This document shows, in pieces, positions 34,033 through 38,124 of a DNA stretch of 38,376 nt. Below the pieces are notes generated by a model. That model was not told the origin of the DNA. It made no database searches and was given only the letters and a program-made list of their open reading frames with translations. The translations under genes and the position numbers were made by a program. Source of the stretch: a virus; IMG/VR virus record IMGVR_UViG_3300049846_000769, positions 1 to 38,376 of that record, one strand, 5' to 3'. The first letter of the stretch is position 1. Every line of letters begins with the position of its first letter.

Positions 34033-34062
34033 ATTGATTTGCCACTAATATCGTTTGCCAAA
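34033..34062 (+). promoter_or_regulatory. Candidate promoter for the lipoprotein gene
   Basis: TTGACC (near 34026-34031), a 17-base spacer and TATCGT (near 34049-34054) precede the gene by about 30 bases. The -35 is good and the -10 weak. The gap (33967-34084) must also hold the leftward late promoter, which was not located. Confidence 0.35.
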
Positions 34063-34084
34063 ACAACTTGTCGAAAGGACATCT

Positions 34085-34651
34085 ATGAAAACAATTATCG
34101 CATTACTTGGCCTGTGTATTACAGCCACCATTCTAATCTCTTGTGGCTCTAAAGAGGTCAAACCAACACCTGTGAACTGTTATGACCATCAGACCTTGGT
34201 TGATGGAAAATGTGTGGATAAGCCACAACCTACGCCGCCACCAGTGGTTTGCACTGACAAGCAAGAATTAAAAGATGGCGTTTGCGTTGATAAGCCAGCA
34301 CCAGTTGACTTGAGTCATTGCGACAAAACTGGAAAACAATATTATTGTGGAAATCCTGTCTGGTATGGATTCCCAAAATGTGGTGAAAACGGTGCAGATG
34401 GTGACATTTATTTCAAGGACTACCAGTCACTTGTTGAAATGATGGCATCAAAAGATCGTGGCTTGTGTCTGACTTATTTAAAAGATGGCGTTGTGACACG
34501 TGTTCCAAGTCCTTATGTGGCACCTGGGCCTTGTGCCTCTTGTCTTGAAATAAACACAGCAAAATCATTTATGATGAGATCACAGCCAAAGATGGTTGAA
34601 ATCTGCAAAGTGATTGATGGTCAAAAACATTGCACATTTAGTTTGAAATAA
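34085..34651 (+). CDS. Phage-encoded lipoprotein with Cys-rich repeats (moron-like)
   Basis: The 188-residue protein has a strong lipobox (MKTIIALLGLCITATILISC, Cys20). The mature part holds two tandem copies of a short Cys motif (VNCYDHQTLVDGKCVDKP and VVCTDKQELKDGVCVDKP) joined by Pro-rich linkers. A domain with six more Cys follows (HCDKTGKQYYCGNPVWYG and others). AAAGGA lies 7 nt before ATG 34085; the longer frame to 34055 is not used. It is a single plus-strand gene with its own terminator between two leftward operons. It should be displayed on the periplasmic face or outer membrane, and exclusion of other phages is a plausible role. Confidence 0.82.
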   Translation: MKTIIALLGLCITATILISCGSKEVKPTPVNCYDHQTLVDGKCVDKPQPTPPPVVCTDKQELKDGVCVDKPAPVDLSHCDKTGKQYYCGNPVWYGFPKCGENGADGDIYFKDYQSLVEMMASKDRGLCLTYLKDGVVTRVPSPYVAPGPCASCLEINTAKSFMMRSQPKMVEICKVIDGQKHCTFSLK

Positions 34652-35992: not shown

Positions 35993-36204
35993 GATTGGCG
36001 TTTGTCCTTAGTCATTTCATAACCAAATTTGGTTGCGTTTTGATGTTCCTGTTCGGTTCTTAAATATCTTGGCTTTTTGTTTTCATCAACCATTACAGTG
36101 GCAACGACACCAAGCGCCTCATCGAATGCAAGGCCGTCATCGTAAAGTTCGCCAATGGCAACAAACCAAGATCCACTTGGGTTTTTAATCAGTTCGATTT
36201 TCAT
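35989..36204 (-). CDS. Hypothetical protein
   Basis: The 71-residue protein begins MKIELIKNPSGSWFVAIGEL, followed by an acidic helix and strand (DEALGVVATVMVDENKKPRYL). No motif was seen. It is coupled to the GHKL-type gene by an ATGA overlap, so both are likely made in similar amounts. Function unknown. Confidence 0.65.
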   Translation of the reverse strand: MKIELIKNPSGSWFVAIGELYDDGLAFDEALGVVATVMVDENKKPRYLRTEQEHQNATKFGYEMTKDKRQS

Positions 36205-37415
36205 ATTGGTTCACCTATGACATGGTTTTCAATCATAGAACAAAGCGAGTCAAATAAAAATGTTTGCAGCGGCCTAGTGCAATCGCCATATCCAGTTTTT
36301 AAATGTATAAACTCCTCAATTATAGTTGAGGTTAAATATTTTGTTCCTAAATGAAAACAGTGCTTTGAAAGAACAATGCAATTCGCATTTGGATCTGCCA
36401 AACCATGAGTCACCTCACCTAATGATTTAACAACCATAATCTGATATTCTTTTATTTCTGGCCAAACTTTTGAGGCAACATCAATCGCACGTTTTAATTG
36501 TAACTCTTCAACTTTTGTCATTTCATCTTGTTCATAATATTTTGAAGCATTCTTTTTCATCCTTTTCATATGAATCTCACGGGCGCTGCGGTTAAGTCTG
36601 TCAGAGTTTTTCTTATAAAGCGACTCCAAAACCTCATAAAATTCTGGCGTTCCGTGTTCATAATAAGCAAGAGAGCTAAAGTTTAATTCACTTTCAAAAG
36701 AATCACCTGGTGCTGTTAAGATCATTTTAATTAAATGTTTATCAGACATCTGTGAAACAGCGCCAGCCAATTTAAGCAAAATCAAATGCTGATTCATGAC
36801 TGTTCTATCCTCAGTCAATGCTAATTCATCTATGTAATTGTAAGTCATCATCGCTGGTTTTTCATAGTCCATCACGCGAACATTTTTATAAAAAAGGCTT
36901 TTAGATGGAATGTTATAAATTGCAGCTGATGAAATAGAAGTTGTTTCACACAGATAATTTGAATCAGCAGACAACATGATTTTATTTTTAGATTTGTAAA
37001 GTTCTGAAAATTCATCGCCACCGACTACAACAAATGTCTTTTGGTCACTGCCATCAAAACCATTTTTGGCCATATAAACATGGCCACCCTCATCAAGACA
37101 ATTACAAAGTATTTCCCTATATGCTTGCCAAAGCTGCCAATTTTTTCCAAGTTCAGTTGTGAATGGTAACTCCTCACCATTCATGGTGATAACTTCAAAG
37201 TCCTTACCACGCATCTGCATTTGTTTTTTTTCAAACTTATATCTGATGCCACCAGCAAAAATAGAAACGTCAATATTGTGACGCATTAAAATTGCGATTG
37301 CATATTTCAAACCAGTTCCAAAAAAACCGATTGGATTAGTTGTTTCTTTTGCTGACACGCCAAATGTGCGAACAGCGCGCATGTCCATCACGCCATTGTT
37401 TTCAAAGACTATCAT
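36201..37415 (-). CDS. GHKL-type ATPase, motifs circularly permuted, with a zincin-like C-terminus
   Basis: The 404-residue protein begins at once with a G1-like box (FENNGVMD, residues 4-11), then RTFGVSAKE and a G2-like box (GFFGTGLKYAIAIL, 30-43). The N-box-like helix AYREILCNCLDEGG (98-111, Glu101 and Asn105) comes after them, not before as in GyrB/Hsp90/histidine kinases/MutL. The C-terminal STIIEEFIHLKTGYGD (about 363-378) resembles a metalloprotease helix, but the first His of HExxH is Glu. ATP-dependent clamp action is suggested by the family. ATG 37415 follows the previous stop directly. Its target is unknown. Confidence 0.65.
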   Translation of the reverse strand: MIVFENNGVMDMRAVRTFGVSAKETTNPIGFFGTGLKYAIAILMRHNIDVSIFAGGIRYKFEKKQMQMRGKDFEVITMNGEELPFTTELGKNWQLWQAYREILCNCLDEGGHVYMAKNGFDGSDQKTFVVVGGDEFSELYKSKNKIMLSADSNYLCETTSISSAAIYNIPSKSLFYKNVRVMDYEKPAMMTYNYIDELALTEDRTVMNQHLILLKLAGAVSQMSDKHLIKMILTAPGDSFESELNFSSLAYYEHGTPEFYEVLESLYKKNSDRLNRSAREIHMKRMKKNASKYYEQDEMTKVEELQLKRAIDVASKVWPEIKEYQIMVVKSLGEVTHGLADPNANCIVLSKHCFHLGTKYLTSTIIEEFIHLKTGYGDCTRPLQTFLFDSLCSMIENHVIGEPI

Positions 37416-37514
37416 TTACTGACCACAAGGTGTTGAAATAATGAATGCCCACACAATGGGAATCATAACAATCACAAGCGCCACAATGAATGCGTTTTCT
37501 AAAACCCTTACCAT
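37416..37514 (-). CDS. Tiny membrane protein
   Basis: The 32-residue protein (MVRVLENAFIVALVIVMIPI, then VWAFIISTPCGQ) is mostly one membrane span. It overlaps the preceding tiny gene by 7 nt, and its stop is followed directly by the GHKL-type gene's ATG, so the GHKL gene may depend on its translation. Function unknown. Confidence 0.55.
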   Translation of the reverse strand: MVRVLENAFIVALVIVMIPIVWAFIISTPCGQ

Positions 37515-37615
37515 AAAATTATGCCCCAAATTATATTCCTTAAAATGATGGCAATCGCGAAAATGATAATCGTTCCAACAATTGCCACGATAAGTTCAAA
37601 CAAAGAAAATTTCAC
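37508..37615 (-). CDS. Tiny membrane protein with GTG start
   Basis: The 35-residue protein (MKFSLFELIVAIVGTIIIFA, then IAIILRNIIWGIILW) is almost entirely hydrophobic, with one or two membrane passes. The GTG at 37615 overlaps the previous stop (GTGA). No separate ribosome site is seen, so coupling is needed. Together with the next tiny gene it explains the gap between two larger genes. Confidence 0.5.
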   Translation of the reverse strand: MKFSLFELIVAIVGTIIIFAIAIILRNIIWGIILW

Positions 37616-38124
37616 AGGTATTGTTCAAGCAACAAAAGCTTTGTGTTTTTGGATAGGTTGCTGGTTCTTATTTCTGTGAAAATGTCATCTGTGGTTGTTT
37701 TCACAACTGGCGCAACAACCTCTGTCAAGCTTAGTTGACTTGGAACTTTTGGCAGGTGGTTTCTGCATTGATAATTAACCACTGATTTGTAATTCCATTT
37801 TTTTCCACGTCTTGTTGTCAACCCTGCCTGATTTAACAATTTAGCAACCTGTTTGCGCGTTTTCCCAGCTTCAAAAGCTGATGACATAATTTCACCAACC
37901 TTTTTTTGACTAAAATTTGGCTGTGCTTTTTTTCTGGTATTATATGCCCGATGTCCATTTGTGCAAAGAAATGTGCTGACATCAGCATTTTTCAATTTGT
38001 TTCCTGATGCTTGAGTGTATCCCAGGTCATTCATATCCTCAGTCATTTGTGTTAGCTTTGCGCCTTGTGATCTTTGTTCAACCAAATATTCCAAAGCTTC
38101 TTTGTCCAATCTTTTAATTTCCAT
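37612..38124 (-). CDS. Double HTH protein with recombinase-like domains
   Basis: The 170-residue protein has two copies of a resolvase/recombinase-type helix-turn-helix unit: EQRSQGAKLTQMTEDMNDLG near 16-35 and AFEAGKTRKQVAKLLNQAGLTTRRGKKW near 83-110 ('G.s...ia..Ln..G..T..G..W....V'). There is no serine-recombinase catalytic domain, so it is probably a DNA-binding regulator. AGGGGGAG precedes ATG 38124. It follows the XRE regulator and may act with it. Confidence 0.7.
   Translation of the reverse strand: MEIKRLDKEALEYLVEQRSQGAKLTQMTEDMNDLGYTQASGNKLKNADVSTFLCTNGHRAYNTRKKAQPNFSQKKVGEIMSSAFEAGKTRKQVAKLLNQAGLTTRRGKKWNYKSVVNYQCRNHLPKVPSQLSLTEVVAPVVKTTTDDIFTEIRTSNLSKNTKLLLLEQYL

Follow-up and report, generated by a model that had tools for sequence, protein, structure and literature searches.

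A virus record of 38,376 bases from IMG/VR, the whole of which was analysed here and is called the window, raised the question of whether one of its genes encodes an ATPase of the GHKL superfamily whose motifs stand in a permuted order. An earlier note, made from the letters of the DNA, had placed such a protein at 36201-37415, and a 404-amino-acid open reading frame was found exactly there. The strand, which the note had left unstated, is the minus strand; the plus strand over this interval contains many stops and no open frame. All the boxes that the note had cited were located in the translated protein: FENNGVMD at residues 4-11, FGVSAK...GFFGTGLKYA at residues 18-39, the N-box stretch REILCNCLDEGG at residues 100-111 and IIEEFIHLKTG at residues 365-375. 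The N-box indeed lay behind G2, at a spacing of 66 residues rather than the roughly 60 first given. The gene and the elements of its putative ATPase part were placed as follows.

36201..37415, minus strand: gene of the putative permuted GHKL ATPase, a 404-amino-acid ORF and member of phrog_8203
37383..37400, minus strand: G1-like box N6-N7-G8-V9-M10-D11, from conservation and structural alignment
37305..37361, minus strand: lid (K-loop) and G2 box (G19...K23...I29-G-x-F-G-T-G-L-K37), from conservation
37089..37118, minus strand: N-box helix R100-E101-xxx-N105-xx-D108-E109, behind G2 and not before G1
36651..37022, minus strand: rest of the core, residues 132-255, with the final strand and a transducer-like (ribosomal S5-like) domain in normal order
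36801..36818, minus strand: LTEDRT, residues 200-205, a putative gamma-phosphate sensor with invariant E202 and R204

A PHROGs search assigned the protein to phrog_8203, a family of unannotated function (E = 1.7e-84, residues 1-398), and matched phrog_6077 in two separate stretches of it (E = 5.4e-12). Relatives at less than 60% identity were found in 72 phage records, chiefly those of YuA/M6-group Pseudomonas phages and further those of Bordetella, Stenotrophomonas, Synechococcus, Bradyrhizobium and Brevundimonas phages. The gp29 protein of Pseudomonas phage YuA is a member; gp29 and its orthologues in Pseudomonas, Bordetella and Stenotrophomonas phages share the same architecture over the full length at 36-38% identity. 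One alignment-based scan of viral contigs yielded 280 relatives, 80 of which were fetched, and a scan of bacterial genomes added 16 loci from bacterial assemblies, which presumably lie in prophages. Judged from these sequences, the family spans hundreds of phage genomes, nearly all without an assigned function: the relatives are mostly labelled hypothetical, and a few are labelled HATPase, ATP-binding protein or metallopeptidase. The copies in Paraburkholderia and Bradyrhizobium assemblies (L138 and L150) were broken into several ORFs, which suggests decaying prophage genes. A match in Escherichia phage ERS-1 (PP337211.1, UNVERIFIED; L007) resembled a YuA-type gene with scrambled frames and was excluded because its reading frame looks corrupted.

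Conservation of the three boxes among homologues, which the earlier note had named as a check, was clear in an alignment of 82 sequences. Residues G19, K23, G30, F32, G33, T34, G35, K37, R45, R69, T86 and W93 were invariant, as were R100, E101, N105, D108, E109, T127, E202, R204 and E241. Thus, the N-box, with its catalytic Glu (E101), Mg-binding Asn (N105) and D108, and the glycines of G2 behind the lid (G30-x-F-G33-T-G35, corresponding to GxxGxG) were kept in every member, and the canonical N-box could be aligned to the former. The order of the boxes was G1, G2, N-box in all 82, and the canonical order N-box, G1, G2 in none. When the N-box and G2 pieces of a canonical GHKL profile were compared with the window family, they scored 25.3 and 22.1, above the maxima of 17.8 and 16.6 over 60 column shuffles; hence, the right places were found even without the sister family described below, and the likeness of the motifs appears to be more than chance. 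Searches of Pfam, NCBIfam and the PDB by sequence, with either the single protein or a 66-member profile, returned nothing meaningful, as would be expected if the boxes were a chance likeness in an unrelated alpha/beta protein. This reading was weighed against two lines of evidence, homology to phrog_6077 and the predicted fold.

Members of phrog_6077 were fetched from three phages (L115:5095-6243, L116:4698-5816 and L117:4325-5248) and the set was widened to ten sequences; examples are QEQ95023.1 of Erwinia phage pEp_SNUABM_01, gp059 of Pseudoalteromonas phage H101 and ORF-15 of Edwardsiella phage IW-1. Their order is N-box (E-x-x-x-N-x-x-D), altered G1 in which S, N or T replaces the Asp, lid, G2 (IGxFGEG) and a transducer-like domain with DRDR. 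The phrog_6077 profile was collinear with a GyrB/MutL/HtpG/rIIA profile (E = 2.5e-7). By sequence, phrog_6077, whose function is unannotated, is a canonical-order phage GHKL family and the nearest sister family of phrog_8203. The two have in common the N-box, G2, the altered G1 and the transducer-like domain, in which LTEDRT aligns with LDRDR; phrog_6077 differs in that its N-box comes first and in that a zincin-like C-terminus was not detected in it.

Comparison of the two profiles showed that the segments are exchanged. The first alignment placed residues 3-241 on positions 45-249 of phrog_6077 (E = 1.2e-13), and a second, non-overlapping one placed residues 80-110 on positions 3-33 (E = 2.4e-5); the next alternative had an E-value of 0.13. 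When the protein was cut into pieces, residues 1-79 (E = 1.2e-10), 80-130 (E = 2e-7) and 131-255 (E = 2.6e-7) fell on phrog_6077 in the order second, first, third. The middle piece scored 44.5, compared with a maximum of 21.3 over 100 column shuffles. Reciprocal HMM searches of whole phage genomes gave swapped-order pairs within single proteins in both directions, namely in Synechococcus phage Ssp-JY42, YuA and AH02 against phrog_6077, and in pEp_SNUABM_01 against phrog_8203. In phrog_6077, a strand comes next after the moved block; residues 126-131 aligned to it only as part of a longer alignment (E = 2e-7; E = 0.078 for these residues alone). If this alignment holds, residues 1-79 would have changed places with the adjacent segment, residues 80 to about 116, and the final strand and transducer-like domain would have kept their position behind them. 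The circular permutation would then be confined to the N-terminal part and would not take in the whole domain. The circular permutation proposed in the earlier note is thus a real swap relative to phrog_6077, narrowed to the N-terminal part of the GHKL domain. The swap probably arose when that part was duplicated in tandem and the outer copies were then lost. Neither a second N-box remnant at the N-terminus nor another intermediate was found among relatives with long upstream frames, where the additional stretch looks like an untranslated leader.

The fold was predicted with AlphaFold2 using 66 relatives. The mean pLDDT was 91.7 for the full-length model and 90.4 for residues 1-255 modelled alone (pTM 0.85), with uncertainty confined to the lid (about residues 20-30, low pLDDT) and a loop at about residues 150-160; the N-box formed a helix at residues 95-108. 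All 50 structural matches listed for the core model of residues 1-255 were GHKL proteins with the Bergerat alpha/beta sandwich (among them Hsp90, TRAP1, GRP94, HtpG, MORC2, MORC3, MORC4, GyrB, ParE and MutL), at Z scores of 5.0-6.4, too low for any one match to stand by itself. The best had a Z score of 6.4 with an rmsd of 4.9 Å over 178 residues, and rmsds were 4-5 Å overall; residues 1-255 of the core were aligned to residues 83-449 of Hsp90. Since no other fold occurred among the 50 listed, we assigned the core to the GHKL fold despite the modest scores, as the note had predicted; a sequential aligner that drops the moved segment would be expected to give such scores. Foldseek alone found no PDB match at E ≤ 0.001, and its weak E-values are the further point in favour of an unrelated fold. 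The window family is nevertheless homologous to phrog_6077, which is itself collinear with canonical GHKL proteins, its listed structural matches are all GHKL, and the shuffle controls did not reproduce its scores. A chance likeness in a non-GHKL protein was rejected on the homology, the collinearity and the structural matches, and we consider it highly improbable. A permuted GHKL architecture, in turn, is very strongly favoured.

The structural alignments also indicated where the protein begins relative to the canonical fold. In nearly all of them, the partner of model residue 1 lay five positions N-terminal to the G1 Asp: residue 68 of GyrB, 53 of MutL, 88 of Hsp90-alpha, 83 of Hsp90-beta and 62 of MORC3. 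Hence, nothing at the front of the protein corresponds to the part that carries the N-box in those proteins. The adenine-binding Asp we take to be D73 of GyrB, D58 of MutL and D93 of Hsp90 (published numbering, with that of MutL counted from the sequence); counted from the alignment starts, N6 occupies its place in the model. The residues that we presume to be counterparts of a gamma-phosphate sensor, K337 of GyrB, K307 of MutL and R380 of Hsp90, would fall near residues 201-208 when counted back from the alignment ends.

G1 is the box that deviates most. Its consensus is N6-x-G8-x-[ILM]-D11 (N6 in 79, G8 in 80 and D11 in 78 of 82). Where DxGxG has its canonical Asp, 79 sequences carry Asn and the other three Thr, and the second Gly is gone; this deviation is common to phrog_6077. 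Because the adenine Asp has been lost, the protein might be a pseudo-ATPase, that is, a permuted GHKL fold that acts as a scaffold and has only a weak affinity for a nucleotide or another ligand. The replacement by Asn in nearly all members, the absent second Gly and the S, N or T at the same position in phrog_6077 are in line with this. A pseudoenzyme is unlikely, on the other hand, to keep the catalytic Glu, the Mg-binding Asn, the G2 glycines, K37 and R204 in 82 of 82 sequences, and we judged this explanation improbable. The protein more probably acts as an active, nucleotide-driven dimerising switch.

The C-terminal part carries a second domain.

36213..36530, minus strand: zincin-like domain, residues 296-401, from VIA-align Z scores of 6-8 to several zincins
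36282..36317, minus strand: EExxH...D (E367 E368 xx H371 ... D378), the zincin signature with Glu in place of the first zinc His

The matches were Wss1 (Z 8.0), AsaP1 (7.7), selecase (7.4) and YbeY (6.9), which are tied within about 1; in addition, the domain weakly matched the metallo-protease family phrog_87 (E = 0.0012), and residues 256-404 had no match in phrog_6077. E367, E368 and H371 were each kept in 80 of 82 sequences and D378 in 81. The reading of IIEEFIHLKTG as zincin-like with its first His lost was borne out by these matches and by the Glu at position 367 in 80 of 82 sequences, with His in none. Residues 296-401 therefore resemble the zincin fold, and the lack of HExxH means that this is no classical zincin; the conservation of EExxH...D means that the site matters. 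In an ATP-gated metallopeptidase, E367, H371 and D378 would bind a metal and cleave proteins, and the GHKL part would serve as the switch. Such a reading draws on the EE-H-D residues kept in at least 80 of 82 members, on a zincin set that includes the DNA-dependent protease Wss1, whose Z score of 8.0 is level with those of AsaP1, selecase and others, and on one relative annotated 'hydrolase, metallopeptidase'. It is made doubtful by the first His of HExxH, present in no member, and by relatives that lack the motif and retain the ATPase boxes, and it seems to us unlikely. The output may vary, for in four relatives, which come from alphaproteobacterial or Micavibrio assemblies, the motif or the domain has been lost although every ATPase box is retained. 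Loss of EExxH or of the C-terminal domain with the ATPase boxes kept was recorded at loci L144, L146, L147, L148 and L006, mostly from alphaproteobacterial hosts.

The genes around the ATPase gene were then considered. Both tiny membrane-type ORFs that had been described beside it are present upstream.

37416..37529, minus strand: tiny membrane-type ORF of 33-37 aa, directly upstream of the ATPase gene
37508..37615, minus strand: second tiny membrane-type ORF of 35 aa with a GTG start, overlapping the former
37612-38124, minus strand: 170-aa protein with a Recombinase domain (PF07508) at residues 76-116, upstream of the tiny ORFs

The TAA of the first abuts the ATG of the ATPase gene, suggesting translational coupling. 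The 170-aa protein apparently lacks a resolvase catalytic domain and may be a regulator that descends from a serine recombinase. The window also encodes exonuclease VIII-like and DNA-repair-exonuclease-like genes. Among 106 neighbours sampled from relatives, the commonest named ones were RecE-like exonucleases, RecT/Bet/Erf annealing proteins, Mu Gam-like end-protection proteins and helicases; as these were counted without a background rate for early phage regions, the association with recombination genes is a hint only. An all-against-all comparison of neighbours within 5 kb showed no universal operon partner (no family occurred in more than about 16 loci) and no neighbour family shared with the window. 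A Mu Gam-like end-protection gene lies close downstream of the ATPase gene in AH02 (L002:9953-10516), and apparently also in several other relatives (L031, L040 and L041). Elsewhere in the window, a 198-aa ORF on the plus strand (34055-34651) that starts with MPKQLVERTSMKTIIALLGLCITATILISCGS, a lipoprotein-type signal, lies between the terminase and the early genes and had no PHROG match.

Compared with known systems, the protein is like Hsp90, TRAP1, MORC, MutL and GyrB in its GHKL fold, its transducer-type second domain, the E, N and D of the N-box and the G2 glycines; it differs in segment order, in the Asn for Asp in G1 and in the zincin-like C-terminus, and identity is about 15% in the aligned parts. 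T4 rIIA is, like the 404-aa protein, a phage GHKL protein, with a variable C-terminus (PMC7824862). It has the canonical order N-box, G1, G2 and another C-terminus, and the PHROGs search gave no rIIA match for the 404-aa protein. The nearest published idea on function is the discussion of rIIA-type phage GHKL proteins as poorly understood counter-defence systems (PMC7824862). In the literature that could be searched, outside of which most subscription journals and all preprints lay, no report of a permuted GHKL or Bergerat domain was found. The paper on phage Lydia, in which every protein of this relative was modelled with AlphaFold 3, mentions neither Hsp90 nor metallopeptidase (PMC11946847), and the Lydia record still labels the orthologue hypothetical.

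Here, we propose a model that summarizes the above results: a permuted GHKL protein forming a nucleotide-driven dimerising switch with a zincin-like output and an early role in the phage, to which, taken whole, we assign a probability of roughly 0.7. The N-box segment, a strand and a helix (residues 80 to about 116), would have moved from before G1 to after G2. The relocated helix is likely to pack in its usual place, so that E101 and N105 would complete the same nucleotide pocket, where, by analogy with established GHKL biochemistry, E101 would be the general base and N105 the Mg2+ ligand. R204 of LTEDRT may sense the gamma-phosphate. Nucleotide binding would then cause lid closure and dimerisation as in MutL, GyrB, Hsp90 and MORC, and the output would be the zincin-like domain, working either by binding or in a metal-dependent way. 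The protein probably has its role at an early stage of infection, either on DNA in the course of recombination or end protection or in countering host defence; each of these roles is offered tentatively. A bolder version seems to us improbable: that the swapped order alters how the nucleotide state is relayed to the next domain and thereby drives the EExxH part, as a metal-dependent protease or a protein-binding clamp on DNA, early in infection. The protein would then be the first permuted GHKL machine, either an ATPase or an NTPase with altered base preference, the latter being considered because the adenine Asp is Asn.

Few ATP switches have been studied as much as the GHKL ATPases, which include gyrase, MutL, Hsp90, MORC and histidine kinases, and one motif order is common to all those compared here. 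On our analysis, the variant is real and widespread and its mechanism plausible. With it, a phage gene that occurs widely and carries almost no annotation acquires an identity, and so does gp29 of YuA, a Pseudomonas phage known for a long time. The altered G1 and EExxH zincin-like domain of the variant are further oddities open to test. Since nature provides both a swapped version and a sister family in canonical order, one can test which stretches of the fold need to be contiguous, as well as how the ATP signal reaches the transducer.
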